Below are positions 4,869 to 35,239 of a stretch of DNA of 35,239 bases, one piece after another. Under the pieces are notes generated by a model. That model was not told the origin of the DNA, made no database searches, and saw only the letters and a list, made by a program, of their open reading frames with translations. The stretch spans positions 1 to 35,239 of the forward strand of contig JAGRGG010000061.1 of the NCBI GenBank assembly GCA_020445645.1. Direction: 5' to 3'. Position 1 is the first letter of the stretch, and each line of letters opens with the position of its first letter. This DNA comes from Geminicoccaceae bacterium (GTDB lineage: Bacteria; Pseudomonadota; Alphaproteobacteria; Geminicoccales; Geminicoccaceae). Both the position numbers and the translations under genes were made by a program.

Positions 4869-5977
4869 GACGTTTCGCTTAGGTACGGGTTCGCGCAGGA
4901 CGCTCAGGCCGTTGCAACGGGGCATTTTCATGCCCTAGGAACGGATCCTGGTTCGCTGAAAATGTTCTGAAAATCGTCGTGAGCGGACCGAGTTGCCGGC
5001 CTGTCACGGCAAAGAGGATGCCGAAGGCGGGGACGTGAGGGTCGGCCATGGCCTTGGACAGGCTTGGCACGACTAGGGAGCGGGGGATCGGGTCGACCAG
5101 CCTCAGGGCATGGCGGCCTCCCGCAAGGTTTTCCCGCTCGATGGTTTCTTATCGGGCCTGTACCTTGGCTTCCGTGATCCTCCACCCCCGCGTGCCGGCA
5201 GTTCATGTCGACCCTTGTGGGCCTTCTCCTGAAGCCAGACCTGTCCGCGCCATGCAAATCATCAACAACAAGCTTCGGTTCAGGCAAGACGGTTGTTCCG
5301 TAAGGTCCGGACGGAAAGGAGATCGGTCTACGGGCCGCTTTCGAGCAGGACCGCCAGATAACCCATGACAGATCATAGTTGTGTTGAAGCCTGCCCCATG
5401 CCTGATGGTTCTTGTCGTCGTCCAGGTTCTTCAACAACGTAACGTTTCGCATGGACCGGCTCTTGAAGCGGCTCCAGGCGAAGGCAACTTCCTGTCTCGC
5501 CGAAGATGCTCCCGAGGACGTTTTCATCGACCGTAGGCCGGGCAACGTCGCACGGATCGTCAAGGTCGTAGTTTCATCGATCGCAAGGTTTGGCCGATCG
5601 CGCCGTAGACGCGTCGGATGTGCCGGGCATCATTTTCGGCCGGCGGCACCGCATCCACGAGGCCCGCACCGCCCCGGGCTCGGACCGCGCCTGCGGGTGG
5701 TTCGACGGCGTTCATGCTTCGCCCGTCCAACGTCTCGCGGGCTCGTCCGTGCGGCGGGTTTTTGGGCGGACGGGGCATCGGGTAGGGCTCCGAACGCGTA
5801 AACGCCCTGGCAAGGCGGCGGGGATGAGGACTAGAATCAGCCATGCAGGACCGTAGGAACGGTGTTCCGCCCGCTTCAAAGGTTCGATCGGCAGGATGGA
5901 ATGAAGAGGCCAGACCCCACGTCCTTGCTGCATGGAGGGTGGGGGCGACGGGGAGCCATCAGAGCAGGAAAGCAGCC
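4869..5977. other. gene-poor 1.1-kb region
   Basis: No frame on either strand gives a protein I recognise. Open frames of 90-210 codons exist (for example 4928-5563 on the minus strand and 5412-5801 on the plus strand). They mix codon types, lack ribosome-binding sites and look like chance open frames in GC-rich DNA or decayed genes. Composition varies along the stretch, with AT-richer parts near 4930-4985 and 5370-5450. A small RNA or a degraded mobile element cannot be excluded. Confidence 0.5.
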
Positions 5978-13871: not shown

Positions 13872-13947
13872 GGCCCCGTAGCTCAGTGGATAGAGCGCGT
13901 GCCTCCGGAGCACGAGGTCACAGGTTCGAATCCTGTCGGGGTCGCCA
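13872..13947 (+). tRNA. tRNA-Arg (anticodon CCG)
   Basis: A complete cloverleaf of 76 bases including an encoded CCA. The acceptor stem GGCCCCG pairs with CGGGGTC, allowing one G-T pair. The D-arm is GCTC...GAGC. The anticodon arm CGTGC-CTCCGGA-GCACG carries CCG. The T-arm ACAGG-TTCGAAT-CCTGT is canonical, with G as discriminator. It reads CGG arginine codons, which are frequent in this genome. It stands alone, and its 3' end borders an AT-rich stretch that resembles an integration site. Confidence 0.97.
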
Positions 13948-14006
13948 AGCTTTTCAGTCGCTTAAGCTGATTGCTGCTTCCCAATTTTATGACTTCTTGA
14001 CATATT

Positions 14007-14025
14007 TGGGAGCACTCTGCGAGCA
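14007..14025 (+). repeat. paired octamer repeat downstream of tRNA-Arg(CCG)
   Basis: TGGGAGCA (14007-14014) and TGCGAGCA (14018-14025) lie 11 bp apart start to start and begin 60 bp after the tRNA CCA. The arrangement is nearly identical to that behind the tRNA-Arg(ACG) fragment at 16936-16954, where both octamers are TGTGAGCA. Such repeats next to a tRNA 3' end resemble arm-type sites of tyrosine recombinases. The sequence from 13948 to 14071 is AT-rich and codes for nothing I can support. Confidence 0.5.
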
Positions 14026-14071
14026 GGTTATCCTTGATCAACGCTAGGCCCATCATCCCTTTTGCCGTCAA

Positions 14072-15328
14072 TCACGCCCGCACCCTCGGCACCTCCTTGA
14101 GCCTCGTCGTGTAGGCGGGGCTCCTGTGGGCGGCGCGAGGGCTCCAGGCGGCCCCGAAGCCCATGCTTGCCACGCGGACGGTGCCCCGCCCATACCTCGC
14201 GTTGATCGCGTCCACGGCCCGCATGAGCGCGTCCGAGCGCGGGCGGGCGAAGAGGTCGAGCGGCGCCTGTCCCGCCAAGCGCAGGTCGTCGAGGATCACT
14301 CCCGCCTTGGCGTAGGCGAAGCCCTGGCGGTAGGCCGCCTCGACGCAGCGTCCGGCGGCGGCGGCGAGGTCGCGGGCGTCCGCCGTCATCGGCACGAGGC
14401 GGGCTGTGCGGCTGCCGTGGTGCTGCGGCCCTTGCCGGTGCCGGTCGGTGTGGAGGAAGGCGGTGAGCTGCCCGGCGATAAGCCCCTGCGCCCGCAGCTT
14501 CTCGCCCGCCTTGGTGGCGAACGCGGCGACCGCCCCGACGACGGGGGCGAGGTCGTGGAGGGGCTGCCCGAAGGAGCGGGTGACGGCCACGCCCTGGCGC
14601 GCCGCTGGCAAGAGGTCGAGGTCGAGGCAGGCAAGGCCGCGCAGTTCGGCCGCGACCCGCTCCAGGACCACCGTGCCGAGGCGTCTTGCGTGCTTCGGGT
14701 CCAGCGCCGCGAGGCCGCCCGCCGTCGTGACGCCGACGCCTTCGAGCTTCCGCCGCGTCGCCGGGCCGACGCCCCACACGTCCCCCACCGGGAGTGCCCG
14801 CAGCACCGCGCACCGCACGCGCTCATCCGTCAGGTCGCACACGCCGCCGAACGCCGGGTTCTTCTTGGCGACGGCGTTGCCGAGCTTGGCCAGCGTCTTC
14901 GTGGGGCCGAGGCCGACGCAGGTGGGGATGCCGGTCCAGCGCCGCACCGTCGCGCGCAGGTCCTGCGCGTAGGCCCAGAGGTCGCGCCCGTCGAAGCCCG
15001 CGAGGTCGAGGAAGGTCTCGTCGATCGAGTAGGCTTCGACGGCCGGGCTGAAGCCCGCCAGTGCCTCGTTCACCCGCCGGCTCATGTCGCCGTAGAGGGG
15101 GTAGTTCGAGGACAGGACCCGAATGCCGTGGCGGCGGACGAGGGGGCGGAGCCTGAAGGTGGGCTCGCCCATGCCGACGCCGAGCGCCTTGGCCTCGGCG
15201 CTCCTGGAGATGGCGCAGCCGTCGTTGTTGGAGAGGACGAGGACCGGCATACCCGCGAGCCTGCGGTCGAAGACGCGCTCGCAGGAGACGTAGAAGTCGT
15301 TGCCGTCGATGAGCGCGACCGGCGGCAC
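14072..15328 (-). CDS. umuC: DNA polymerase V catalytic subunit UmuC
   Basis: A 418-residue Y-family translesion polymerase, active with cleaved UmuD in SOS mutagenesis. The palm motifs ALIDGNDFYVSCERVF (Asp8) and SIDETFLDL (Asp103, Glu104) supply the catalytic metals. VLSNNDGCAISRSAEAK and SSNYPLYGDMSRRV are characteristic of UmuC. Helix-hairpin-helix and little-finger regions follow, and the C-terminus is a DUF4113-type tail (DAINARYGRGTVRVASMG). The start is GTG 15328, four bases after the umuD stop, so the two genes are translationally coupled. It is controlled by the SOS box upstream of umuD. Confidence 0.95.
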   Translation of the reverse strand: MPPVALIDGNDFYVSCERVFDRRLAGMPVLVLSNNDGCAISRSAEAKALGVGMGEPTFRLRPLVRRHGIRVLSSNYPLYGDMSRRVNEALAGFSPAVEAYSIDETFLDLAGFDGRDLWAYAQDLRATVRRWTGIPTCVGLGPTKTLAKLGNAVAKKNPAFGGVCDLTDERVRCAVLRALPVGDVWGVGPATRRKLEGVGVTTAGGLAALDPKHARRLGTVVLERVAAELRGLACLDLDLLPAARQGVAVTRSFGQPLHDLAPVVGAVAAFATKAGEKLRAQGLIAGQLTAFLHTDRHRQGPQHHGSRTARLVPMTADARDLAAAAGRCVEAAYRQGFAYAKAGVILDDLRLAGQAPLDLFARPRSDALMRAVDAINARYGRGTVRVASMGFGAAWSPRAAHRSPAYTTRLKEVPRVRA

Positions 15329-16986: not shown

Positions 16987-20118
<3,132 letters not shown>

Positions 20119-20435: not shown

Positions 20436-21752
20436 TCAGGCCACCCCGGCGGCGACCTTCTCCGCGTCGCGCACGCGGATCTCGCCGGACATGAGCTTGG
20501 GGAGGAGGAGGTCGCGGGTCTGGGCGAGGGTGCGGGACTCAAGCTCATTCGTAGCGATCTTCCTATAGAGGGAATTCACGAGCGCATCGAATTCGCTGTG
20601 TAGGCTACGTGAAGCCATCGTTACTGGGATAGGACGAAAATTTCTTTTGCTAATCTCTAAAAAAGTTGAGCCATTCGCCTTTTCTAGTATTTTAATCATG
20701 TTTGCCATGCACCATAACCAAGCAAATAAATTAGAAATTTTGTTTTTGCAAATCATTGCAATAAACCCTTGATTCACGGCAACGGGAATTTCGGCTAATG
20801 CCAAATAGCCGATTGGCGCTCTTGAAGAGAGCAGAACCGTTCCGACAGGTAATAAGCCCGAACCGATTTTTGCTAGACCATTGGATGTTATCTTACGGGC
20901 GGTACTCATCAGAACCGGGCTTGCCAAGGACGAAAGATCCTTCGGAGTAGCCCAGTTTATGTCCCCGTCCCAGAAAGCCGGTTCGCTCGTGCTTGGCGTC
21001 GAGCCACCGAGCACTTCGACTTCCTCACCGATGGTCGACGTCTCCCACCCCTCCGGCTTCCCCGCCGCGTCCAGCCGCTCGGGGAACAGGTCCCAGAGGT
21101 CGGGGGCAAGATAGGGGGCGCGGCCTTCGGCCTTGGCGCGGGTAGGGCCGAAATCGACGAACCAGTCCTTGAACACCGCCCGCGCCATCGCCTCCAGCGT
21201 CGCGTTCATGCGGCGGTTGAGGTCGATCTTGTCGTCGAGGGCGCCGAGGATGGAGGCGATAGCACGTTGTTCATTAAGTGGAGGTAGTAAAAACTTATAA
21301 TTTAGAATTTTACCAGGAGACGTATGCTTAACAGTAGATCCTGTATAACTTGCTAAAATCTCATTGCGATAATCGGGCGTTCTAAGTAACCAATGAACAT
21401 AACTTTGGCATATTTCGCTGTTTTTGATAATAATTTTGCCAAGGCGCTGATTGTGCAACAAGCGATGCGCGCTTTCTGGAATTCTTGCCGAATAGCCTAG
21501 GGTATCAGCCTCTTTACTTAAGTCAGTCATCGTCACAAGGAGATCGTTTGGCAACAGAATGAAATCTTCTGGCACTGGCCCGCCACGATAGAATTTGTGT
21601 TTTCCCCATTGAAATCCGCCACCAGCTGCAAAATTACCAGGAGTTAGCAGTATGTCTCCAGGTGGATTATCAAAAAAATATTCACCTTTAAAAGCAAATC
21701 CATGCTTTATATCTACAAGTTCGGCTAATTTAGCTGATTTCCAATTATCCAT
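20436..21752 (-). CDS. hsdS: type I restriction-modification specificity subunit
   Basis: A 438-residue subunit that determines the DNA sequence recognised by the HsdMSR complex. It has two target-recognition domains (about 1-165 and 235-385). They are separated by a conserved helical spacer ([20 protein letters not shown] to [20 protein letters not shown]) and closed by a second helix ([20 protein letters not shown]). ATG 21752 overlaps the end of hsdM by eight bases (ATGGATAA), so translation is coupled; the TTG one codon earlier is less likely. The two recognition domains are strikingly AT-rich while the helical spacers are GC-rich like the host, indicating imported recognition domains in a resident scaffold. 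Confidence 0.95.
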
Positions 21753-23559
21753 CAATATTAACCTTGCCTAGCTCCTCCCGAATCGTTCCCGCCAACCTCT
21801 CTCCCTTCTCGAACTGTCCCTCCAATTCTGCCCACAGCGCCGCGAACCGCTCCACGAACGGCACGTCGTCCTCGTCCGCCGCCACAGCACCGACGTAGCG
21901 GCCGGGGGTCAGCACGAAGCCGTGGTCGGCGATCTCCGCCACCGTCGCGGCCTTGCAGAAGCCGGGCACGTCGGCGTAGCCGCTTCCCTCACGCCAGCGG
22001 TGGTAGGCGTCGGCGATGCGGGCGACGTCGTCGTCGGAGAATTCCTTGCGCGTCTTGTCGACCATGTGCCCGAGCTTGCGGGCGTCGACGAACAGCACCT
22101 CGCTTCTGCGGTCGCGGAGCCGGCCACGGCCCAGCACCTCGCCGCCGCGCCTGTTCCGGGCGAGGAACCACAGGCAGGCGGGGATCTGGGTCGAGTAGAA
22201 CAGTTGGCCGGGAAGGGCGATCATGCAGTCGACGGCGTCGGCCTCGACCATGCGGCGGCGGATCTCGCCCTCGCCGCTCTGGGTGGAGGACATCGAGCCG
22301 TTGGCGAGGACGACGCCGGCCGTGCCGTTCGGGGCCAAGTGGTGGAGGACGTGCTGGAGCCACGCGAAGTTGGCGTTGCCGGGCGGGGGCGCCCCGAAGG
22401 CCCAGCGGGCGTCGTCGCGCAGGCGCCCGCCGCCCCAGTCGGAGACGTTGAAGGGCGGGTTGGCGAGGATGTGGTCGGCGCGCAGGTCGGGGAGTTCGTC
22501 CTCGTGGAAGCTGCCCTCGGGGTTCCAGCGCACGTCGGCCTCGATGCCGCGCACGGCGAGGTTCATCCGGCAGAGGCGCCACGTGGTGTGGTTCGACTCC
22601 TGCCCGTAGACGGCGATGTCGCCGATCCGCCCGCCGTGGGCTTCCACGAACTTCTCCGACTGGACGAACATGCCCCCCGAGCCGCAGCAGGGGTCGTAGA
22701 CGCGGCCCCGGTAGGGCTCCAGCATCTCGACCATCGTCCGGACGACCGAGCGGGGCGTGTAGAACTCGCCGCCGCGCTTGCCCTCGGAGCCGGCGAACTG
22801 GCCGAGGAAGTACTCGTAGACGCGGCCGAGCAGGTCGCGCGCCTCGCCCCGCCCGTGGCCGATGGCGATGTCGGCGACGAGGTCGATCAGCTCGCCCAGC
22901 ATGACGGGGCTGAGGGCGGGCCGGGCGTACTCCTTGGGCAGGGCGCCCTTGAGGCTCGGGTTCACCTTCTCGATCGCCGCCATCGCCTCGTCGATGGCCC
23001 TGCCGACGCCGGGCTGCTTCGCGCCCGCCCGGAGGCGCGACCAGCGGGCTTCCTTCGGCACCCAGAACACGTTCTCGGCCCTATAGGCGTCGGGGTCCTC
23101 GGCGTCCTCCGGGTACTCGGCCAGGAGTTCGGCGCGCTTCGCCTCGAAGCCGTCGGAGACGTGCTTCAGGAAGATGAGGCCGAGCGCCACGTGCTTGTAG
23201 TCGGACGGCTCCATGTTGCCGCGCAGCTTGTCGGCGGCCCGGAACAGGTCCGCCTCGAAGCCGAGGCTGGCGCCGCCGTTGCCGCGCTTGGCCTTGGGCT
23301 TCGGTTCGGGCGGGGGTTCGGGCGGGGGTTCGGGGTGGGCGAACAGGCCGGCCGGCGCTTCGCGCCTGTCGGTCAGCGCCACCGACCCGCCCCGGCCCCG
23401 GCCAAGCGCGACGCGGCCGTCCGCGACCAGCGCGTCGCGTGTCGTGGCGTAGGACGCCTCGTCCCAGCCGAGCGCCGCGCGCAGGCGCGCGTTGCCGGCC
23501 GATCCGCCGAGATCGGCCAGGGCGTCGATGAACCGTGTCTCGTTCGCGCCGTCCGTCAT
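21745..23559 (-). CDS. hsdM: type I restriction-modification methyltransferase subunit
   Basis: A 604-residue N6-adenine DNA methyltransferase subunit that protects host sites and supplies the methylase of the complex. The SAM-binding motif is [11 protein letters not shown] (288-298) and the catalytic motif is NPPF (367-370). The N-terminal 70 residues look like a small winged-helix module ([20 protein letters not shown], then [10 protein letters not shown]). A repetitive proline/glutamate linker ([14 protein letters not shown]) joins it to the usual HsdM helical domain. The frame extends to 23661, but ATG 23559 has AGGAG just upstream and begins the recognisable domain. It ends inside the hsdS start and lies 108 bases after the helicase gene. 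Confidence 0.95.
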
Positions 23560-23667
23560 GGGCTCCTCAAGCGATGTCCGTCGTCGTAACCGACTTCTGC
23601 CTTCTCGCCCCGCGCGAGGCAATGCGCCCGTATGGCGGCGAGGGAGGACGCGGGAGCGCAAGGCTTG

Positions 23668-25845
23668 TCATCCCCCTACGGCATCCATCAGCCGGCGCGC
23701 GAGGCGCGCGAGGCCCACCGTGTCTAGCCTTCGGCTCGCGTAGCCCAGCGTTTGCAACTCGTCGCCCAGGTAGACGTCGTACTTGTCCAGGCAGCGGTCC
23801 CTTACCCTCGCCGCCAGCGCGACCGGATCGGGGTCGGGCGCCCCGGCGATCCTCGCCAGCGCAGAAAGCACCTCCCCGGCGCTCCCCGCGACCTGCAGCG
23901 CCAGCAGCGTGGGCTCGGTCTTGAGACCGTGGGCGGCCAGGGCGAGCAGGAGGGCTTCCTGGCGCCGCCCCCCGACCCAGGGAAAGACCAGCGTGTCGTG
24001 ACCGTCCGCAAGGATCGGTCTTCGGGCAAGTCCCAGCCGAGCGAAGGTCTCCCGGCCCTCGCGCAGCAGCGCCCGCGCCCCGGGGTCGAGGTAGGCAGGG
24101 ACGCCGGCGTCTTCGTAGAGGCGGCGCATTTCGGCCACCACCGCGTCGTGGGGCGCGATCGTGCCGCCGCCGAATCGCGGCGCCTTGCCCGTGCGCGCCG
24201 GGACGACCTCGATCTCGCCCCGGTGGGCGTGAAGCGCCACGACCTGCCAGCGGCGGCCGGCGAAGAGGATGTAATCGCCCTGGAGGGGGGCGTGCTCGGC
24301 CGGCAGCGAGCCCAGCGTCTTCCCGTCGCAGACGAGCCGGTACTCCTTCGGCGTGTCGAACACGGCGAAGAAAGCGTAGGAAGCGAGCAGCCGCTCGCCC
24401 TCGCGCCCGGGCAGCAGCACCCCGTCCGGGGCCTGCTCGATCAGCCCCACCCGCGGGTCGCCCATCCGGCGCAGGAGCTTCTTGAACAGGGCGGCGTCGA
24501 CGTCGGCGAACGCGCCGCCGCGAACGAGGCAGTCGAAGGCGCGCCTGGGGGTGACGCCGCCGTGCTGGCCGATCAGGGCGAGGATCTGATGCGCGAGCGT
24601 CGAAAGGTGCGGCTCGCCTGTCCCCGACGGCTCCACCCAGCGCTTGAGCAGCAGTTCCACCATGGCGACCGTTTGCAGGAGGGTCGGGCGCAGGGCGTCG
24701 AGCGGGTGGGCGAGCGCGCCCAGCTCGCTTTCGGGAACGTACACCCTCAAGACGGCGGGCGCCCCCTCGCGGCGGCCGGACCGGCCGAGGCGCTGGCGCA
24801 TGCCCGCCACCGTGTGGCCGGGGCCGATCTGGGCCACCGCCTCGATGGCGCCCACGTCGATTCCCAGTTCGAGCGTGGTCGTGCAGACGATCGTGGCGGG
24901 CCGATCCGCCCGCTTCATCCTCGCTTCGGCTTCCTCGCGCAGGTCGCGGCTGAGGCTGCCGTGATGGGGCAAGAACTCCCCCGGCACGCCGGCCTCCTCG
25001 CTCAGGTCGTTCAAGGCCGCGCTGTAGATCTCGACCTGACGCCTGGACCCGGCGAAGATCAGGTTCTTGCCCCCGCGCAGGCTCTCGAACATGTCGCGGG
25101 CGATCCGCCGGTCGGCCGTGCCGGGGAGGGCGCCCCCATCCCCTCCGTCCGCCTTCGGCGGCTGGAGGGGGTCGAGGTAGCCTCGAACCTGCAGCATCAG
25201 CCGCAGGCCCGAGCCCTGCGACTCGACGACGGCAACCCCGTCCGGCGCGTTCGGCCGCAGGAAGGCGGCGGCGACGCTCAGGTCGGCCAGGGTGGCGGAC
25301 AGGCCCACCCGAGGGATCCGGCGCCCCGCCGCCGCCTCGAGGCGAACGAGAAGGGACTGGAGCTGCTTGCCCCGCGGCGCGTCGAAGAAGGCGTGCAGTT
25401 CGTCGATCACGACGTGCGTCAGGCCCTTGAACAAGCCCCTCGCCTCGCCCCCGCGCCGCACCAGGATGGCCTCGAGCGACTCCGGCGTGATCAGGACGAT
25501 GCCGTGCCGGGCCCGCCGGGCGCGGTTCTTCGCGGCTTGGCCGACGTCGCCGTGCCATTTGAAGACGGGGATGTCGAGATCCCCGCACAAGGACTCGACG
25601 CGGCGGAACTGATCGTTGATGAGCGCCCGAAGAGGGCTGACGTAGAGGGCGTCGAAGCCGGACGGCGGCGCCCCGGCGGCCGAGGCGATGCGCGAGACGA
25701 TCGGAAGGAAGGCCGCCTCGGTCTTCCCGCTCGCGGTGGCGGCGGCGATGACGGCGTCGCGCCGGCCCTCCAGCAGGACCGGGATCGCCCGCGCCTGGAT
25801 GTCGCGCAGCCCGCTCCAGCCCTGGCGCCAGATCCAGCGCCGCAC
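23668..25845 (-). CDS. sngC: Lhr-like DEAD/DEAH helicase of a Shango-like defence module
   Basis: A superfamily 2 helicase of at least 725 residues. Visible motifs are motif I TASGKT (37-42), motif II DELH (148-151), motif III SAT (183-185) and motif VI QRLGRSGRREG. An Lhr-type C-terminal region follows (LFAGRRWQVVALHAHRGEIE). It probably remodels nucleic acid for the ATPase and TerB-C proteins encoded upstream. The first canonical start is GTG 25845, but the frame is open further upstream into the ATPase gene and reads TPPFDLLHEEVRRWIWRQGW there. That is the normal beginning of such helicases, so the protein probably starts earlier at a non-standard codon or by coupling with the ATPase gene. 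BREX BrxHI helicases are related, but no other BREX genes are present. Confidence 0.8.
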   Translation of the reverse strand: MRRWIWRQGWSGLRDIQARAIPVLLEGRRDAVIAAATASGKTEAAFLPIVSRIASAAGAPPSGFDALYVSPLRALINDQFRRVESLCGDLDIPVFKWHGDVGQAAKNRARRARHGIVLITPESLEAILVRRGGEARGLFKGLTHVVIDELHAFFDAPRGKQLQSLLVRLEAAAGRRIPRVGLSATLADLSVAAAFLRPNAPDGVAVVESQGSGLRLMLQVRGYLDPLQPPKADGGDGGALPGTADRRIARDMFESLRGGKNLIFAGSRRQVEIYSAALNDLSEEAGVPGEFLPHHGSLSRDLREEAEARMKRADRPATIVCTTTLELGIDVGAIEAVAQIGPGHTVAGMRQRLGRSGRREGAPAVLRVYVPESELGALAHPLDALRPTLLQTVAMVELLLKRWVEPSGTGEPHLSTLAHQILALIGQHGGVTPRRAFDCLVRGGAFADVDAALFKKLLRRMGDPRVGLIEQAPDGVLLPGREGERLLASYAFFAVFDTPKEYRLVCDGKTLGSLPAEHAPLQGDYILFAGRRWQVVALHAHRGEIEVVPARTGKAPRFGGGTIAPHDAVVAEMRRLYEDAGVPAYLDPGARALLREGRETFARLGLARRPILADGHDTLVFPWVGGRRQEALLLALAAHGLKTEPTLLALQVAGSAGEVLSALARIAGAPDPDPVALAARVRDRCLDKYDVYLGDELQTLGYASRRLDTVGLARLARRLMDAVGG

Positions 25846-25915
25846 TTCCTCGTGCAGGAGGTCGAACGGCGGCGTCAGGGCGGGTATGGCCGTCTCCGAC
25901 TGGTCGTGGGCAGGC

Positions 25916-27232
25916 TCACAGCCGGAATTCTGCGAACCCTTCGTCGCTCGTTGCCGGACCCTCCGCCCCCTTGGGATCAGCGTTGAGCGGGCCCCGGTCG
26001 GGCGCGATCTCAGTTCTTTCGATCAGGTCGTCCCAGGCCGTGCCCGGGTTCTGGTCGAGGACGGCGAGCAGGTCGAGGAAGGTCTTGATCGTGTTGCGCG
26101 GCGTGCGGAAGTAGGCTTCTCCGATCTTCTGCTGGCAGTGCGCCATGAAAGCGTGCAGCGCCTCGTCCGGAACCGGGTAGTCGTCCGGGTTGCCCTGGGC
26201 GAAGACGTGACGGAGCTTCGTGAGAAGAACGTAGAGTTCCTCCGTCGTGAGCGCCGGCAAACGGATCACGGGTCCGGAGAAATCGACCAAGCCGTGCTTG
26301 ACGAAGCTGTTCTCGGCGAGCCGCGAGCGGAGTGCTTCGTAGGAGTAGAGCCCGCGGCGGGGATCGAGGAGAAATTCGGGCGTGCCGCCGAAGAGCACGC
26401 CGAAATGCTCGGCTCGACCTTGCAGGAGATCGTTCACGATGCGCAGGATCTGCTCGTAGTTGGCGTTGCGCGACGTGGCGTTCACGAGCTTGTGGAGGTT
26501 GACCATCTCGTCCAACACGACGAGGAAGCCGTCGTAGCCGGCGAGCCGCACGAAGCGGGACATGAGCTTCAGGTGATCGTAGACAGTGTCGTCGTCGATG
26601 ATAACGCGCACGCCCAGGTCGGATTTGGCCTGCGTCTTGAGCGCGTACTCGCCCCTTAGCCAGCGCAGCGCGGCATCCTTCAACCGGTCGTCCCCCGCCT
26701 CGAAGGCTTCCCAGTAACGGCGGATCACGGTTGCGAAGTCGTAGCCGGCCCGCATGTCCTGCAACACGGCAAGCCTCTTCTCGATCTCATCGCCGACGGC
26801 ATCCTCCGTGCCGGCGTGCCGCCTCGCCTCGCCGATGAAGCGCTCGATGATCGAGGTGAGGGCGCCGCCCTCGGGCTTGCTGCGGGTGGCGAGGTTGGTC
26901 ATCAGCACGGCGTAGAGGCCGCGCGCCTCGCCGCCGCTTGCGAATAGGCGCTGGTTGGGACCAAGGTCGGCGTGGGCCGTGACGAGTTTCGTTTCCAGGG
27001 CCACCAAACGCGCGAGGTTCAAGAAAAAAGTCTTGCCCGAGCCGTAGTCGCCGATGACGAAGCGCACGGTTGAGCCCCCTTGGGAAAGGTTGCGGATGTC
27101 CTTGACGATCTGCTCGATCTCCCGCGCCCGGCCGACCTGCACGTGCTGCAGGCCGAGCCGGGGAACGACCCCGGCACGCAAAGCCCCTACGATCGCGTTG
27201 CGATCCCTGACCTTGATGTCGCCACGTGCCAT
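25916..27232 (-). CDS. sngB: P-loop ATPase (BrxD/DUF2791-like) of a Shango-like module
   Basis: A 438-residue ATPase with Walker A GDYGSGKT (61-68) and Walker B FLVVLDEM (236-243). GLQHVQVGRAREIEQIVKDI at the N-terminus and FYSYEALRSRLAENSF-type sequence near residue 320 are typical of the DUF2791 group used in BREX (BrxD) and Shango. ATG 27232 follows the TerB-C gene by 17 bases, with GGGAAGG in front. Its stop abuts the helicase frame. In the known three-gene Shango systems, a TerB-like protein, an ATPase and a helicase are encoded together; this order fits, while BREX core genes (pglX, pglZ) are missing. Confidence 0.82.
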   Translation of the reverse strand: MARGDIKVRDRNAIVGALRAGVVPRLGLQHVQVGRAREIEQIVKDIRNLSQGGSTVRFVIGDYGSGKTFFLNLARLVALETKLVTAHADLGPNQRLFASGGEARGLYAVLMTNLATRSKPEGGALTSIIERFIGEARRHAGTEDAVGDEIEKRLAVLQDMRAGYDFATVIRRYWEAFEAGDDRLKDAALRWLRGEYALKTQAKSDLGVRVIIDDDTVYDHLKLMSRFVRLAGYDGFLVVLDEMVNLHKLVNATSRNANYEQILRIVNDLLQGRAEHFGVLFGGTPEFLLDPRRGLYSYEALRSRLAENSFVKHGLVDFSGPVIRLPALTTEELYVLLTKLRHVFAQGNPDDYPVPDEALHAFMAHCQQKIGEAYFRTPRNTIKTFLDLLAVLDQNPGTAWDDLIERTEIAPDRGPLNADPKGAEGPATSDEGFAEFRL

Positions 27233-27249
27233 TTTAATTTGTCCTTCCC

Positions 27250-28479
27250 TTACGCCTCGGGGGGCTGTTCAAGAACGGCGCGCGCGACGATGATAGGGTC
27301 GCCGTCCTCGATCACGGCTTCGTGAAATCGCTCCAATGCCCAATCATTGATCGTTTCAAGCGCGCCGTCAGGCATCAGGTCGAACGCGCGGGCGTGCGCC
27401 TCGTATTCCGGGCGGTTGCACCGCTCGATCGTCACCAGAACTTGCAGAAGGGCCGCGTGCCGTGCCTCGAGGCCGGGGTAGGGGCCATCCACGCTGGCTT
27501 CGGCGGCAGGAGGCACTGGAACTGGCGAAGGCTCGTCGTGGTCGAAGATTTCTTCCAGAATTCCACCTACGTTTCTGGTCTGTTCCTGGATCAGCTTGAT
27601 GCGGTCAGGATCCAAGAGGACCACGGTACGGACCAAAGGGCGATCCGTCCGAGGGAGCACTGGGGCGTCTTCCCCGGGAACCTTCGCCGACGCTTCCTTT
27701 ATTGGTTCGTCTGTCGACAGAACGGGTTCGTGCGGTACCGGGACAGACGCATCATTTTCTCCGTTTTCGCTGCCCAGACGAACTTGCCGTTCGTTGGCGA
27801 CGTAGGCGGAGGGGTAGGGAATCGAAAAGTCAGGTGGCGCGGCTTCGGCCAAGCCGCTCCGAACGGGCGCTTCCGGCAAGGTAGGCAAGGTTTGGGATTG
27901 TGGGATTAAGAGGGGCGACGGTTCGGATCTCCTGACAGCGTTGTTCGGCGTTTTCGCGTCGATGGCCTCGAAAGATCCCATAGGCGTAGTGACCGAAGCC
28001 TGTCGGAACATCTGGACGAGCCGGTCATGCGCGTCGCGCCGTTCGAGCTTCCCGTCGCCGTTCACGATACCAAAGACGCGCTCGACCCGCAGCCGTCGCC
28101 CAGTTTCCGTCTCTGTTGCAACGAGCAAGGCGACCCCGTTTCCTGTCCGCTCAGCGGCGCATATCTCGATGCTTAGCAAGATGTCGCGATCGTCATCGGC
28201 TTGATAGCCAAGCGTGGCTTGAGTCGGTTTTCTTAGTAGAATTTGTCTGCTTGGCCCCAGTGTCAAATTCCAAAGCTCAGATATTTCTTCCGGCTTACGT
28301 CCCCGTGTAGGAAAATATTGAAAGCCACTTGCAAGTGGAGCTACGATACTTGACCTATTGCGAGTGCCGTTTCTCAATTGTCTTGAGGGACATCCCTTCG
28401 CCAATCCGGATTGAATATATGCAAAAATGCTCAATATTTTCGCCCTGGTAGACAGTAGCTCGTATCGGCTTGATGCCAC
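27250..28479 (-). CDS. sngA: TerB-C domain protein, possibly N-terminally truncated (SngA-like)
   Basis: A 409-residue frame. Residues about 285-409 match the TerB-C pattern: LLDPDRIKLIQEQTRNVGGI, LEEIF, then LEARHAALLQVLVTIERC and AFDLMPDGALETINDWALER. Residues 190-285 form a Pro/Glu-rich linker. Residues 1-190 are not recognised, and the TerB-N and TerB domains usual in such proteins are not visible. The GTG start directly follows an in-frame TAG and has no ribosome-binding site, and the first 60 codons are in AT-richer DNA. The gene may have lost its true N-terminus, or the start lies elsewhere. The ATPase gene follows after 17 bases. The Shango assignment rests mainly on the neighbours. 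Confidence 0.6.
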   Translation of the reverse strand: MASSRYELLSTRAKILSIFAYIQSGLAKGCPSRQLRNGTRNRSSIVAPLASGFQYFPTRGRKPEEISELWNLTLGPSRQILLRKPTQATLGYQADDDRDILLSIEICAAERTGNGVALLVATETETGRRLRVERVFGIVNGDGKLERRDAHDRLVQMFRQASVTTPMGSFEAIDAKTPNNAVRRSEPSPLLIPQSQTLPTLPEAPVRSGLAEAAPPDFSIPYPSAYVANERQVRLGSENGENDASVPVPHEPVLSTDEPIKEASAKVPGEDAPVLPRTDRPLVRTVVLLDPDRIKLIQEQTRNVGGILEEIFDHDEPSPVPVPPAAEASVDGPYPGLEARHAALLQVLVTIERCNRPEYEAHARAFDLMPDGALETINDWALERFHEAVIEDGDPIIVARAVLEQPPEA

Positions 28480-28704
28480 CTATTGAGATGACGGTGTCAA
28501 GGCCCGCTTCAGTAACATTGCACGCCGATTGGACGCCGTGCATGACCAACCTTTCTTGGCGATAGCTTCTGTACCGGCCAAGACTTCGATATGTCGCTGG
28601 CTGTTCACACTATCCGTCATAAGCCCCCAAGTGATCGCCTTGAACGTTATCAACGTTTTATGCCCCGCGGCTACGCGCGAGGCAATCCTTTCCTGAGCTG
28701 GCAT
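28480..28704 (-). pseudogene. upstream open frame separated by TAG from the TerB-C gene
   Basis: A 74-residue frame from ATG 28704 (TTG 28707 also possible) ends with TAG. The next codon in the same frame is the GTG 28479 used above for the TerB-C gene. The two frames may thus be one gene interrupted by an amber codon. The sequence (ITWGLMTDSVNSQRHIEVLA and so on) is not recognised, and its codon use is less GC-biased than in the neighbours. It may equally be a chance frame in the gap after mcrC. Confidence 0.35.
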
Positions 28705-28745
28705 CAAGGGTGATGGTGAGGCGTCGCGGCAGGCAAAAAGTCCAA

Positions 28746-30020
28746 CTAGGTTTTAGTCGCATACGCTCGATTCCCAAAGGGACGGTGCGGCGGCAATGGC
28801 AACCGCTCGCCCGCGATGAGAGCCGGCAGGTCGAGACCGTAGGCGAGCAGGTCTGTGCCGTGGCCGTCCTTCAGGGCATAGCGCCGCATGAGGCCAGCGG
28901 GCATGGCAGGACTGGAAGGGTAGAGAAGGGCGACCTGCTGACAGTCGTAGCGGGCGGCGTAGGCGGCGAGCTGGTAGACGTCCCCTTGCGCGAGGCCCAG
29001 GTCCGCAAGCCCGGCGTCGACGGCCTTCCACTTGGCGTCGGCGACGAGGAGGACATGGTCCTCCCGGTCGAGCACGGCGATGTCCGGCCGCATCCTGAAC
29101 ACGGACGCGTCACCGTGGGCGGCGAAGTACCGTTGCGGGCCCTGCGCGACGACGCGGCGCCCCTCCCGACCCCAGTCGCGCGCGGCGACGGCGGCAACAA
29201 ACGCCTCGAACAGGCGGTTCATGTCGAACAGGAGTCCGAAGCTTGCCGCGCCGCCCGCCGCGACGTCGGGGTGGAGGTTGCGCAGAAAGGCTGCCGCCCG
29301 GGTGAACAAAGGTTGCCAGGGGGCGATGGTCCGGTCGAAGGGTAGGGCCTCGACGTCTTCCGCCCTGACCTTCATTGCAGCGACGTCTTCCAGGCGGCGG
29401 AGCAGCACGTTGGCCTCGCGCCGGGCTGCGCCCCCGACGGCGAGGTCGAGCATGACGCGCAGCGCGTGCTTCAGGGCGCGATTGTGGGCGTTGTCGAGGC
29501 TGAACTCGTCGTAGCGGCAGTAGAGCCGGGCTTGGTTCACGAGGTTGTGGCGCATCTGTCCCGGCAAATGCAGGCGGCCGCGCAGCTTAGTCAGGTTCTC
29601 CTCCTCATCGACGTAGCGGCGGATCGGCCCCCGGTGCAGCAGGGTCGTCGTTCGGCGGCAGAAGTCGAGGATGAAGACGTCGAGCAGGTGGTGTTGGTGC
29701 AGAGCAAGGTCGGCCACGTCGATCGTGGCGGCGAGGCGCTCGCCCGCGAGGCGCAGCATGGCGACGAGGCAGCGCCGCGTCCCGTCCGGATCGTCGAGGG
29801 AGCCTTGCAGCTTAGGTAGGATCTCGATCGTCAGGTCCCCAGCCTGCACGACGCCGCAAAAGGCGCCGAAGCACACGCTATGGTGGCACCAGGCGAGGAC
29901 GCCCTTCGGCAGGGCAGGCTCAAGGCGGGCCAGCGCCGCCGCTTGTGTCCGGGTCAAATCAGTCCCAGGTCCGCCGCCAATCGTAAGCCTCTGGTGCTCG
30001 CGCAGCGACAGGATGCTCAT
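28746..30020 (-). CDS. mcrC: McrC-type nuclease subunit of a modification-dependent restriction system
   Basis: A 424-residue partner of McrB that cuts DNA containing modified cytosines when driven by McrB GTP hydrolysis. The N-terminal half carries the McrB-contacting region (TIEILPKLQG; ENLTKLRGRLHL). The C-terminal half is a PD-(D/E)xK nuclease with MRPDIAVL (Asp313) and VADAKWK (Asp328, Lys330), then YQLAAYA. The start ATG 30020 overlaps the mcrB stop as ATGA, so the two are made together. The TAG stop is 38 bases before the small frame upstream of the TerB-C gene, so read-through into that module is possible. Confidence 0.94.
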   Translation of the reverse strand: MSILSLREHQRLTIGGGPGTDLTRTQAAALARLEPALPKGVLAWCHHSVCFGAFCGVVQAGDLTIEILPKLQGSLDDPDGTRRCLVAMLRLAGERLAATIDVADLALHQHHLLDVFILDFCRRTTTLLHRGPIRRYVDEEENLTKLRGRLHLPGQMRHNLVNQARLYCRYDEFSLDNAHNRALKHALRVMLDLAVGGAARREANVLLRRLEDVAAMKVRAEDVEALPFDRTIAPWQPLFTRAAAFLRNLHPDVAAGGAASFGLLFDMNRLFEAFVAAVAARDWGREGRRVVAQGPQRYFAAHGDASVFRMRPDIAVLDREDHVLLVADAKWKAVDAGLADLGLAQGDVYQLAAYAARYDCQQVALLYPSSPAMPAGLMRRYALKDGHGTDLLAYGLDLPALIAGERLPLPPHRPFGNRAYATKT

Positions 30021-32641
30021 TCGAGCGTCTCGTAAACCTTGCGCACCGCTTCGGGCGTGACCTCGACCTCGGGCGCCACCTCATAGACCACCCCCTCGGA
30101 CGCGGCCTCGGCGTTGCCGAACAGCTTCGAGGGCGAGACCTTGCCGGTGCGCACGATCTGCCGGCTAGGTTCCTTGACCTGGGTGTCCGCCAGCACGAGC
30201 CGGATCTTGTGCCAGTCCTCGTAGAAGTACTCCTGCAGGAGCGGCACGATCTCGCGGAGCAGCACGCGGCGCAGACTCTCGAAGTCGCGGACCTTCATCA
30301 GGTAGGCGTGGCCGAGCGTCTGGTCGCGGTGGAGCAGGTAGGCGATACGTTCGTTGAGCGCGGTCAGAAGGGCGCGAAGGTCGATCTCGCCGTCCTCGCC
30401 GTCGGGGATCGTGCCGTCGCCTGCGCCGATGACGGCTTCGGGGACCGGCATCAGTTCCTCGAAGCGAAAGCGCCGGCGCAACGCTACGTCGAGAAGGGCG
30501 AGCGAACGGTCGGCCGTGTTCATCGTGCCGTAGACGTCGAGGTTGGTCGGCACGCCGAACGTGTCGCCGGAGTAGGGTAGGGTTACCTCCATGCCGCCGA
30601 CGAGCCTGCCGACCTCGTCGTAGACGGCGCGCTTGTCGGGCTCGATAAGGGTGATCATCTCGCCGAAGATCTTGGCGACGTTGCCGCGGTTGATCTCGTC
30701 GATGAAGAGGGCATAGCGGCGGTGCGGGTTCAGCCTTGCCCGCTCGCACAGCCGCCGGAAAACGCCCGGCACGACCCTGTAGGTCAGGACGCCGTCGTTC
30801 GCCTCGGGGCGGATGCCTTCGATGAAGTCCTCATAGGCGTAGGCTTGATGGAAGGTGACGAAGGCGTAGCGTCGAATGGAGGACTTATCGCTCCCGGGAC
30901 CGGCTCTAAGGACGTCGAGCAACTCGACCAGATCGGCGCAGCCATCCTGCCACTCGCCGGTAAGGTGCCAGTTGCCGGCTTCATTCTTGTCGAAAACGAA
31001 GGGACTGGTGCGCCGTACTGGATTCACCTGAACATGCGGCGAGTCGAGCGGCACATGGTACTGCAGGGCGTTCCAGCACGTGGCGCGCAGCAACCTGTTC
31101 GCGCGGCCGGAGGCTTTGGCTTTCCAGAACGCGTGCTGCAGGATGTCGTCGACGGAAGCGGGGCGATTCAAGTCCGCCAGCACCAGAAAGGCGACCTGCC
31201 ACCACGTCAAGCCGGCCATGCGCTCCCGCAGCCACGTCTCGCGGTCGACCTTGACGGGCTCCTGCTCGTAGTCGGGCAGGTAGGCCGTGCGCAGGCGATG
31301 CGTCTTGCCGGTGCCGGGCGGACCGTAGAGGATCAGGTTGAGGGCCGAGGACGATGACGAGGGCATGGGCACCGCCTCCCCCATCTGGACCTTCTCGGCC
31401 GCCGCCAGCGGCGGCAGCCCTTCCCACAGGCGCTCCAGCCTGCGGGCGGCTTCGGGCAGAAGGGCAATATCCGAAGTCTGCGGCGACCACGTCTGCGTCG
31501 GGGCCTCGGCTTCCAGCTTGCCGATCCCGACGATCGGATCCTCGTCGGCATCCCGGATCGCGATGAACCCAATGTCGACGAAGCGCGTCGCTTGGCCCGC
31601 CTCGGCACGGCCCGGATCGTAATGCGGTGCTTCGTAGGCTTCCTTGACGATGCTGCCGCGGGCGATGATGCCCCGCGGCTCACGGTCGAGCCGAACGAGA
31701 TAGGCGACGTCACCCGCCTTCGGCCTCGTCGAGCTTGAGCGCCAGGGCATCGTGACGATCTCGCCAGCCGTCGTTGCCGCACGATTGCCGGCAAGATCTT
31801 TCCAGGTCCAGTTGTCAGGGTTCCAGGCGAACAGCCAGGCTTGGCCGGCTTGACTCCACCGGACCTTGATGTCGTCCTGGTAGAAGTCGATGCCGGCCGT
31901 GCCGCGCTCAGCTTCAAGGCCCTGGCGGATCTCGAGCAACGCTCGGTCGATCGCCGCGTCGTTCATGGCGCCGACGGCCTTGGGCTTGAGTCCCTTGAAC
32001 GCAGCGACGATCTTCTGCTTATCAGTTGCCGTCGTGATGCGCTCGAAGGTTTCGGGAAAGCAGAAGTAGCGTAGGATGTGGCGGAACTGGCGATGGCCGT
32101 CCATCGGCACCGTCGCAAGCCATGCCGAGAAGCGCCAGGGGTCAGCGAGCACGTGCCGCCGCTCGTCGGGCGTCAGCCCCTTGAAGACCCGCGTCAGCCC
32201 GATGAGGTAGACGAGCTCGCGCCAGCGGTTCGTATTGTAACCCATGCCGGGCGAGCCGATGCCGTGCAGGACAGGCGCGGCCAAGTAGGACACGTCGTCC
32301 GGCAGTTCCTTCTCTGACCAGCTCCAGACTTCACGAATCTTCGACGCCTTCATCTCGACGCTGACATTGGATTGGAACAGGTAAAGCAGCCACAGCATCT
32401 CGGCCATGAGCTGGCGCGCGTCGGGCGGGGCAGCCTTGACCTGCGCGTGCAGCTTCTCGAAGAAGGTGCCGCTGCCGGCGTCGGGGTTCTGGACGAAGTG
32501 CCGATCGAGCGCGTCAAGCAGGTTGGGCGTCCAAAGCGAAAGATCATCGATCAGAATGCTACTGTCCTGCACGAAGCAGCGTTCCTTCCACGCCGCCGCA
32601 GCCTTGAGGATCGGCGCGTGGTCCGGATGCGCGATAGCCAT
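30017..32641 (-). CDS. mcrB: McrB-type GTPase with EVE-like domain
   Basis: An 874-residue AAA+ motor of an McrBC restriction system. Residues 1-250 are helical and shared with similar McrB proteins. An EVE/PUA-like domain follows at about 265-395 (AWLFAWNPDNWTWKDL ... VDIGFIAI), the usual reader of modified bases. The AAA+ core has Walker A YGPPGTGKT (439-447), Walker B ALFIDEINRGN (644-654), the GTP-selecting GTMNTADRS (705-713) and arginine finger region ALRRRF. Between Walker A and the rest of the core lies an insertion (about 455-590) with a helical, winged-helix-like segment (AGLTWWQVAFLVLADLNRPA). ATG 32641 has GGAGG six bases upstream. It overlaps mcrC by four bases. Confidence 0.93.
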   Translation of the reverse strand: MAIAHPDHAPILKAAAAWKERCFVQDSSILIDDLSLWTPNLLDALDRHFVQNPDAGSGTFFEKLHAQVKAAPPDARQLMAEMLWLLYLFQSNVSVEMKASKIREVWSWSEKELPDDVSYLAAPVLHGIGSPGMGYNTNRWRELVYLIGLTRVFKGLTPDERRHVLADPWRFSAWLATVPMDGHRQFRHILRYFCFPETFERITTATDKQKIVAAFKGLKPKAVGAMNDAAIDRALLEIRQGLEAERGTAGIDFYQDDIKVRWSQAGQAWLFAWNPDNWTWKDLAGNRAATTAGEIVTMPWRSSSTRPKAGDVAYLVRLDREPRGIIARGSIVKEAYEAPHYDPGRAEAGQATRFVDIGFIAIRDADEDPIVGIGKLEAEAPTQTWSPQTSDIALLPEAARRLERLWEGLPPLAAAEKVQMGEAVPMPSSSSSALNLILYGPPGTGKTHRLRTAYLPDYEQEPVKVDRETWLRERMAGLTWWQVAFLVLADLNRPASVDDILQHAFWKAKASGRANRLLRATCWNALQYHVPLDSPHVQVNPVRRTSPFVFDKNEAGNWHLTGEWQDGCADLVELLDVLRAGPGSDKSSIRRYAFVTFHQAYAYEDFIEGIRPEANDGVLTYRVVPGVFRRLCERARLNPHRRYALFIDEINRGNVAKIFGEMITLIEPDKRAVYDEVGRLVGGMEVTLPYSGDTFGVPTNLDVYGTMNTADRSLALLDVALRRRFRFEELMPVPEAVIGAGDGTIPDGEDGEIDLRALLTALNERIAYLLHRDQTLGHAYLMKVRDFESLRRVLLREIVPLLQEYFYEDWHKIRLVLADTQVKEPSRQIVRTGKVSPSKLFGNAEAASEGVVYEVAPEVEVTPEAVRKVYETLE

Positions 32642-32853: not shown

Positions 32854-33183
32854 TCAAACGTCCTCCCCCTCGACCCCCAACCGTCGCAGCATCGCGAGCG
32901 CCATCCGTCTTAGATCCTGGATGTCCTTGGCATAGGCGCCGTGCCTATAGGCGTTCTGGTTGCCCCTTTGCCCGCCGCTGCCGTAGGCGCCGCCGTGCAT
33001 CCGGCAGCGGCGCTTGCCTTTCACGGCGGGGGCGCGGCAGCGGGTGTTGCTCCTGGTCCGCGCCCCGCAGCGCGGGCTCTGATGCATGGGTCGGACGCTC
33101 GTGGTGGAGGCGGGAGTGTCGGTGCCTACGGCGTCCTTAACGTTCATCCCGCTTTGCATGGGCCCGTTCTTGGCCTTCGTCAT
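32854..33183 (-). CDS. mobile-element protein with HGG and GNxNAxxHG motifs
   Basis: A 109-residue basic protein. CGARTRSNTRCRAPAVKGKR, with nearby Cys and His, looks like a small zinc-binding unit. It is followed by RMHGGAYGSGGQRGNQNAYR and HGAY, the pattern of a protein family common in alphaproteobacterial phages and islands. Its biochemical role is not established; some members are annotated next to phage packaging genes. It is the last of four genes joined by 4-base overlaps (ATGA at 33180-33183), so it belongs to a coupled cassette with the three upstream. Confidence 0.75.
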   Translation of the reverse strand: MTKAKNGPMQSGMNVKDAVGTDTPASTTSVRPMHQSPRCGARTRSNTRCRAPAVKGKRRCRMHGGAYGSGGQRGNQNAYRHGAYAKDIQDLRRMALAMLRRLGVEGEDV

Positions 33184-33806
33184 CGACCTCCCCCCTTGGC
33201 ACCCATCTTGATGCTGCCGACGATCGCCTGCCCGCCGTCCTTGACCTCGACCCGCTCGACCCGCACCACTTGCTGTGCTGGGGCACGGTGGCGCTTGAGG
33301 ACGCCCATCTGCATGGCGTAGGCGCGCAGGAGCTTGACGGCGAGGTTGCCGCTCGCCTGCTGGCGCTCGATCGAGTCCGACCGCGCCGCGTCCTGGAGGA
33401 GGCGCACGGCGAGGTGGTGCGTCGCCGCCATCTGCACGGCGAGTTGGCCCTCGACCTCGTCCCGAGGTGCTACCGCCGCCATGCCGGCGACGAGGGCATT
33501 GGCCGCCTGCACCGTGCCTCCAGCGCCGTCGTCGACGAGCCGGGCGAGGTCTTCCACGGCCTGGAGGGCGAACGCCTTCGAGCCGGAGCCCGTCGCCTCC
33601 ATCAACCTGCCGACGTAGCCCTTGACGTCATGACCCTCGACGGCGGGAGAGAGAAGGCTCTGCCCGTCCCGCTCCTGCCGCTCGAAGGCGGGTGGGACGG
33701 GTTCGCGCCGCGGCTTCGGACGCCGACGGCGGGTCGTTGGGGATGTGGTGAGGTCGTTTGCCACGGAGGATGCTCCGGTCGGGGGTGGGGAAGGAGTGCG
33801 GCTCAC
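33180..33806 (-). CDS. hypothetical protein of the mobile cassette (208 aa)
   Basis: A 208-residue protein. A disordered basic, proline-rich N-terminus (to about 50) is followed by a helical body (AFALQAVEDLARLVDDGAGG; QLAVQMAATHHLAVRLLQDA; NLAVKLLRAYAMQMGVLKRH) and a beta-like tail (QQVVRVERVEVKDGGQAIVG). That ending is typical of the proteins found beside the HGG-motif gene in alphaproteobacterial elements. Function is unknown. The GTG start (33806) overlaps the previous stop as GTGA, and its own stop overlaps the next gene as ATGA. Confidence 0.75.
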   Translation of the reverse strand: MSRTPSPPPTGASSVANDLTTSPTTRRRRPKPRREPVPPAFERQERDGQSLLSPAVEGHDVKGYVGRLMEATGSGSKAFALQAVEDLARLVDDGAGGTVQAANALVAGMAAVAPRDEVEGQLAVQMAATHHLAVRLLQDAARSDSIERQQASGNLAVKLLRAYAMQMGVLKRHRAPAQQVVRVERVEVKDGGQAIVGSIKMGAKGGGR

Positions 33807-34057
33807 GGCAAAGGCTCCCCGTGCAAACCTACTTCGGCGGGATCCTTGGCAAGTTCAGGCGCCACGGCCAGTGCCGCGCAGGCCATCCGCATGTGCCAGT
33901 CTGCCTGTGGCGCAGCCGGAGGTCCGGCGTGCGAAAAAAGCGAAGGAAGCGAAAAAACTCCCTCGCCCGGTCGACCGGTGGGCGATTCTGCACCCTTCCT
34001 AACCCTTTTTGCGCTTTTTTCGCGCCCGTGGTGCCGGGCAAGCTCTAGGTAGCTCAT
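33803..34057 (-). CDS. small hypothetical protein of the mobile cassette (84 aa)
   Basis: An 84-residue protein beginning MSYLELARHHGREKSAKRVR. A low-complexity middle (SPTGRPGEGVFSLPSLFS) and a helical C-terminus (MRMACAALAVAPELAKDPAE) follow. The start ATG 34057 overlaps the stop of the DUF3987-type gene as ATGA, and its TGA overlaps the next GTG, so this is a real coupled gene despite its size. Runs of A and T near 33937-34020 make it prone to slippage. Function is not known. Confidence 0.68.
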   Translation of the reverse strand: MSYLELARHHGREKSAKRVRKGAESPTGRPGEGVFSLPSLFSHAGPPAAPQADWHMRMACAALAVAPELAKDPAEVGLHGEPLP

Positions 34058-35239
34058 CGGATGGCCCTCCACCGTTCGGTGGGGCGTCCCCCCGTGTTTT
34101 CCCGCTCGCACGCCGCCATCCTCTGCCCCTTGAGCGCCTCTAAGGCGCGGTTGATGGCGGTGGCCGACTGGTGCCGGCCGAACAGGGCGGAGAGGTCGCT
34201 TCGGTTCATCCCGGCCGGAGCCTTCTTCAGCGCTTGCAGGATCGTGTCCGCCACCGGGTCGCCGAGCGTCTCGCCGAACAGGCAGGCGGCCGACGCCTCG
34301 CAGTAGTCCCACACCGCGAGCGCAGCCCTCAGGTGGACGGGGACGATCAGGCGGCCGCCGTCCATGATGGCGTAGAGCAGGGCAAGCCGGACAACGTGCG
34401 CCTCGCCGCGGGCGACGACGGCGCCCAAGAGCCCCGGCTTGCCCTCGCTCAAGGGCTCGTAGACCGCCGCCCACAGCGCGCGGGCCTCATCGTCCATCCG
34501 CACCTCACCGAGCCCGCGCGCCATCTCGATTTGTGCCCGCAGGCGGGGCACGAGGTCGCTCCAGTCGATCGGCCCGCCGCCGAAGGGCAGCAGCCTGGAG
34601 CGGCGCACGCAGGCGATCAAAAAGCGGTTGAGAAAGCCGTTCGCCATCTCGGTGCGGTTGAGGTCGCGGCGCAACTCGTCTTCGGTGATGTGACCGATGA
34701 GGCTGATGTGGGCGCCCGTGGCCCGCGCCGGGCTCGTCTTGGTCAGCGTGCGCAGGTCGCCCTTGTCCCAGGCGTCGCGGACGACGGCGGAGAGGATGCT
34801 GCCCTGCCGGTCCGCCATGCGCAGCACCGACGCGAACTCCTCCTCCACCACGAGCAGGCGCTTGTCGGCAACCCCGGCGTCGGCGACGGCCTCGGCGCCC
34901 GTCTTCTTGTCGGTCTTGATCCGGGGGATCGGGTCGCGCACCTCCCAGATCAGCCCTTCGCCGCTGGAGAGGCCCGACACGATGCGGTCCCGCTCCCATT
35001 CGTCGTCCACCTGCTTGAAGGGCTCGCGTGCCCGGTTCCACGACGTGCCCTTGCGCGCCTTGGCCGTCTGGCCGACGAGGAGCAGGTTCTCGTTGGCGTA
35101 GTGGCGGGTCGCCTCGACGCGGTAGAAGGGCGCTGTCTCGCCCGCCCGGCCGATGGCGTTGCCGGCCAAGACGATCAGCTGCAGGAGCACGGCGGCGGGG
35201 TCGGCCTCGGTTTCGTCTAAGCGGCGGTGCGAAAGTGTC
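34054..35239 (-). CDS. DUF3987-type replication-associated protein, 5'-truncated by the window edge
   Basis: The last 395 or so residues of a larger protein; the frame stays open to the window edge, so GTG 35190 is not the true start. Visible signatures are QLIVLAGNAIGRAGE, LLLVGQTAKARKGTSW (P-loop-like), RIVSGLSSGEGLIWEVRDP, DKRLLVVEEEFASVLRMADR, TLTKTSPARATGAHISLIGH and a C-terminal helix-turn-helix region (MNRSDLSALFGRHQSATAIN). These are features of DUF3987 proteins carried by phages and integrative elements, often fused to or near primases. A role in element replication is inferred. It heads the four-gene coupled cassette. Confidence 0.78.
   Translation of the reverse strand, partial: TLSHRRLDETEADPAAVLLQLIVLAGNAIGRAGETAPFYRVEATRHYANENLLLVGQTAKARKGTSWNRAREPFKQVDDEWERDRIVSGLSSGEGLIWEVRDPIPRIKTDKKTGAEAVADAGVADKRLLVVEEEFASVLRMADRQGSILSAVVRDAWDKGDLRTLTKTSPARATGAHISLIGHITEDELRRDLNRTEMANGFLNRFLIACVRRSRLLPFGGGPIDWSDLVPRLRAQIEMARGLGEVRMDDEARALWAAVYEPLSEGKPGLLGAVVARGEAHVVRLALLYAIMDGGRLIVPVHLRAALAVWDYCEASAACLFGETLGDPVADTILQALKKAPAGMNRSDLSALFGRHQSATAINRALEALKGQRMAACERENTGGRPTERWRAIR

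Follow-up and report, generated by a model that had tools for sequence, protein, structure and literature searches.

Reduced SngA in a Shango-type operon from a defence island of a Geminicoccaceae bacterium

The operon and its surroundings

The stretch of DNA analysed here (the window; 35,239 nucleotides) covers positions 1-35,239 of the forward strand of contig JAGRGG010000061.1 from a Geminicoccaceae bacterium (GCA_020445645.1; 291 contigs, 95.8% complete). In the ORF listing of the window, three adjacent genes on the minus strand follow one another in the order sngA-sngB-sngC (Table 1). As was originally predicted, they encode a TerB-C protein, an ATPase and an SF2 helicase. The Pfam matches of the three proteins (Table 1) are much stronger than chance would give. 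The predicted close spacing of the genes was also confirmed. The SngA stop is separated from the SngB ATG by 17 bases. The first ATG, GTG or TTG of SngC (25845) lies 70 bases past the SngB stop, but the SngC frame extends without a stop back to 26022 and thus overlaps SngB. The length of 409 aa for SngA is that of the longest ORF.

The surroundings of the Shango-type operon are a defence island, in agreement with the original prediction: McrBC-type genes are located upstream, and a type I restriction-modification set downstream. The tRNA-Arg gene followed by the UmuC-like polymerase (13872-15328) forms the left border of the island. Beyond tRNA-Arg there are ordinary chromosomal genes, including that of NAD-glutamate dehydrogenase. 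We found no repeat of the tRNA-Arg 3' end in the contig that would mark the other end of the island. Positions 32854-35190 of the window encode an HGGxSTG protein of the Terminase-small-like kind and a primase/helicase-like protein with DUF3987. The two suggest the presence of a mobile element next to the island, at the end of the contig. HsdM is 638 aa long, and about 130 residues ahead of its HsdM_N domain have no Pfam match. These residues may form an additional domain at the N-terminus, or the start codon may be located further downstream.

Table 1. Features of the sngA-sngB-sngC locus and its neighbourhood (window coordinates)
Feature	Position	Strand	Description
sngA-like ORF	27250-28479	-	409 aa as longest ORF, GTG start; Pfam TerB_C 9.9e-23; PADLOC SngA 1.4e-22
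SngA stretch homologous to Shango SngA	27259-27708	-	residues 258-407; includes TerB_C at 27268-27618
First ~83 codons of the sngA ORF, probably non-coding	28230-28479	-	GC 0.45; coding signal absent in every frame
mcrC-sngA intergenic stretch	28480-28745	-	GC 0.55; TerB_N traces absent in any frame
sngB, BrxC/BrxD-family ATPase	25916-27232	-	438 aa; PF10923 (BrxC_BrxD) 1.3e-148; PADLOC SngB 1.9e-169
sngC, SF2 helicase	23668-25845	-	725 aa counted from first GTG; PADLOC SngC 1.4e-247; DEAD 3.2e-30, Helicase_C 2.2e-13
SngC codons at the GTG and ahead of it	25843-25887	-	FDLLHEEV motif, in-frame ATA before it
McrC	28746-30020		upstream of sngA
Large McrB-like AAA protein	30017-32641		weak EVE match; upstream side
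HsdM	21745-23661		downstream; type I restriction-modification set
HsdS	20436-21755		downstream; type I restriction-modification set
HsdR	16987-20118		downstream; type I restriction-modification set
UmuC-like polymerase	14072-15328		further left
tRNA-Arg	13872-13947		further left

Relation to Shango and BREX

The Shango system consists of SngA, SngB and SngC (Johnson et al. 2023, PMC10250203). When intact, it reduces the plating of several phages by a factor of 10 to 100 and also protects cells in liquid culture (PMC10250203). Using the PADLOC models, we compared the window proteins with those of Shango and BREX. The ATPase matched SngB over profile positions 4-438 of 439, and its E-value for BrxD was only 9.3e-49. 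It scored 161.8 on the NCBIfam BrxD model, the cut-off of which is 350. The helicase matched SngC with residues 2-717 on profile positions 14-718 of 720, against an E-value of 2.7e-111 for BrxHI. The window SngB is about 58-67% identical to its 80 best relatives. PglZ, a core protein of BREX, was not found in the whole genome by a search that matched it in two control genomes, and there was no PglX or BrxC among the window proteins scanned.

The locus might be regarded as a fragment of BREX (BrxD and BrxHI), since both proteins match the BREX models too: the ATPase belongs to the same Pfam family, PF10923, and the SF2 helicases are related. However, the Shango models outscore the BREX ones by far, a TerB_C gene precedes sngB as in Shango, and PglZ is absent from the genome. 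We therefore rejected a BREX identity as extremely improbable. The profile matches strongly support the assignment of the ATPase to SngB and of the helicase to SngC. The ATPase was rightly predicted as DUF2791/BrxD-like, and it scores far better as SngB than as BrxD. The Lhr-type label of the helicase holds as far as the SF2 helicase is concerned and is otherwise approximate, because the protein is SngC, which in a helicase tree groups with BrxHI, DruE and DpdJ (PMC12278908).

Like the described Shango (PMC10250203), the window locus has a full-length SngB and SngC with their conserved positions retained, a TerB_C protein directly ahead of sngB, the A-B-C order on one strand and a location in a defence island. 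In contrast to it, the approximately 245 N-terminal residues of the window SngA are unrelated to those of Shango, and SngC has no ordinary start upstream of its conserved N-terminus. A Shango SngA contains TerB_N, usually TerB, and TerB_C; only TerB_C is present here. Of the Pfam families named in the original prediction, TerB_C and PF10923 were matched, and TerB_N is absent from SngA. The predicted Shango module is therefore borne out by SngB, SngC, the gene order and the PADLOC matches, but not by SngA or by the start of SngC. Because two of the three components and the gene order fit the definition of Shango and the domain make-up of SngA does not, we describe the locus as a Shango-type operon in which SngA is reduced, and not as a complete, standard Shango system.

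Changes in SngA and SngC

The window SngA matches the PADLOC SngA model only at positions 396-520 of 528 (125 positions), whereas its relatives cover nearly the whole model. In an alignment to the profile of 74 relatives' SngA, only residues 258-407 were placed (positions 657-800 of 807, 122 bits), and nothing upstream of residue 258 aligned. We then counted domains in 56 SngA-type ORFs, that of the window and 55 of relatives. TerB_C was present in all of them, TerB_N in 53 and TerB in 47. The domain scan gives counts only, and the three ORFs without TerB_N were deduced from profile matches: they are the window ORF and two of the relatives' (L024 and L102), the other 53 of the 55 having the domain. 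In L024, the ORF is an additional copy with TerB_C alone, next to a full SngA. The L102 ORF starts 55 bases from the contig end, and its match to the profile is good only beyond about position 391. Where there is room upstream, the SngA of relatives is about 670 to 1140 aa long, except in L093, where it is spread over two ORFs of different frames, and in L019. TerB_N was absent from the whole source genome, and the same search found it in six other genomes, one of them of the same family. No TerB_N remnants were found in other frames upstream of sngA. The window SngA, used as a query against genome contigs, had no relative there. Short TerB_C frames in three genomes (G456, G475 and G528) are located at contig ends and were not taken as evidence for a short SngA. 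The N-termini of SngA vary among relatives: eight of the 56 proteins, several of them from alphaproteobacteria (for example, L017, L044 and L059), begin with a peptidoglycan-binding PG_binding_1 domain, and the L023 SngA has an LprI-like match.

According to the codon scores, the coding signal in the SngA frame starts near residue 83, at about position 28230. From residue 83 to 409 the frame is open with a modest coding signal. Between 28230 and mcrC none of the frames scores as coding, and the local GC drops to about 0.43-0.56. Some other AT-rich spacers in the window have a GC of 0.46-0.52. Since such spacers occur elsewhere, the AT-rich stretch may be an ordinary spacer, with the SngA start near residue 83, or it may be one side of a break. 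The only repeat at this point is a 13-base imperfect inverted repeat, and no similar DNA was found in plasmids or in the genomes of the family.

The original prediction described the first 190 residues of the protein as unrecognisable. This unusual N-terminus is real, but the part without recognisable relatives extends over residues 1-245, and the first 83 or so codons of the ORF look non-coding. Residues 1-280 had no relative in plasmids, phages or PDB, and residues 85-280 had none in viral contigs. In 398 genomes of the phylum and in genomes of the same order, nothing matched the N-terminal part convincingly. Scattered weak matches in 18 other genomes of the about 400 searched, with E-values from 0.004 to 0.05, were attributed to chance. 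Structure models built without an alignment were of low confidence, with a pLDDT of 34 for the whole SngA and of 50 for residues 64-170, and gave no fold match in Foldseek. Judged by eye, residues 95-162 looked WYL-like. We rejected this identity, because residues 74-280 have no Pfam hit and the model has no Foldseek match. The source genome encodes one WYL protein.

The remaining parts of the operon are well conserved. SngB deviates at 7 of 148 near-invariant positions and SngC at 4 of 146, in both cases inside the range of similarly divergent relatives. All eight invariant SngA columns, which are located in the TerB_C part, are kept. Because the conserved positions are retained, SngB, SngC and TerB_C have been under constraint until recently.

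It turned out that the start of SngC is anomalous. In relatives, SngC starts near the SngB stop and often overlaps it. The window counterpart of this start is a GTG at 25917-25919 that overlaps the SngB stop; this GTG is not in the SngC frame, and translation from it would end after 14 codons. The SngC frame contains no ATG, GTG or TTG upstream of the conserved FDLLHEEV motif, which ends with the GTG codon at 25845. The motif is preceded by an ATA in the same frame (25885-25887), and GGAGA lies a few bases before this ATA. In contrast to the window SngC, an ordinary start codon precedes the motif in each of the 85 relatives checked.

Impaired operon or working variant

On balance, we favour the explanation that this is a Shango-family operon in which the 5' part of sngA was truncated or replaced, the TerB_C tail was kept and sngC lost its normal start, and that it was probably impaired recently. 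In an intact Shango, SngB (an AAA-type ATPase) and SngC presumably act on DNA as a motor that blocks phage propagation, and SngA would be a regulator or sensor joined to them via TerB_C. In the window locus, TerB_N and TerB would have been lost with the 5' part of sngA, leaving the TerB_C tail next to sngB. The motor genes are intact at their conserved positions, but the presumed sensor part is gone and SngC is probably translated weakly. The operon has therefore most likely been impaired recently or is inactive. The loss of TerB_N and TerB, the N-terminal region without relatives, the coding break at about 28230 and the start of SngC all argue for impairment. Interruption of sngA by IS elements in other Shango loci (L151 and L019) points the same way. 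Against it, the deviations in SngB and SngC do not exceed those of similarly divergent relatives, and the invariant SngA columns are kept; with residues 83-409 open and modestly coding, decay would have to be recent. A further point against impairment comes from Acetobacter musti, where a second, TerB_C-only ORF lies directly before sngB. This suggests that TerB_C-only proteins can persist.

The Acetobacter musti locus (L024, 2834-5950) encodes a full-length SngA, then a short zinc ribbon-linker-TerB_C ORF, then sngB. The short ORF (5252-5950) resembles the window SngA in being short, in its unrelated N-terminus and linker and in the position of its TerB_C directly before sngB. It differs in following a full-length SngA and in having a zinc ribbon as its N-terminus, and its identity to the window protein, 38%, is confined to TerB_C. 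It is the best support for the main rival explanation, a functional reduced variant, which we consider rather unlikely. SngA would then be a short adaptor that docks a different sensor onto SngB and SngC. Its N-terminal domain would be small and beta-rich (about residues 95-162) and would be followed by a disordered linker and by TerB_C. SngC would start at a non-standard codon (ATA or CTG). The coding signal from about residue 83, the retained conserved positions of TerB_C, SngB and SngC, and the variable N-termini of relatives' SngA, such as PG_binding_1, are consistent with such a variant. However, its N-terminal region has no relatives in any collection searched, the models are of low confidence without a fold match, Acetobacter musti keeps the full SngA as well, and the start of SngC is anomalous. 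It is correspondingly doubtful that the locus is a minimal working Shango, in which TerB_C alone would serve as the docking module between the SngB-SngC motor and an exchangeable sensor at the N-terminus, and TerB_N and TerB would be dispensable. Damage to a normal Shango might also be mimicked by an assembly error, namely by the chimeric joining of sequences near 28230, by a single-base error ahead of SngC, or by both. The break in GC and coding signal at 28230 is abrupt, and the SngC start is out of frame exactly where relatives overlap the SngB stop. We consider this improbable, because two separate errors would be needed in one operon, GC-rich island genes flank the AT-rich stretch on both sides and no TerB_N fragment is left elsewhere in the nearly complete genome. 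Thus, we are probably dealing with a damaged or unusually reduced copy and not with a novel type of system.

In the plasmid collection, SngB relatives occur on 695 plasmids, 452 of Klebsiella and 144 of Salmonella. Among the plasmid loci inspected, an uninterrupted SngA of the TerB_N type was present in both Salmonella loci and in one of the two from Klebsiella. In two interrupted cases, ISVsa5 interrupts SngA on a Klebsiella plasmid (L151, NZ_CP020062.1) and an IS3 element splits it on a Yoonia plasmid (L019, NZ_CP021432.1); sngB and sngC look intact in both.

If the window locus is merely damaged, it is an example of the decay of a defence operon within an island, and a caution that a three-gene Shango call may conceal an incomplete SngA. 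As a natural TerB_C-only locus with conserved SngB and SngC, it separates the domains of SngA and so makes their roles directly testable.
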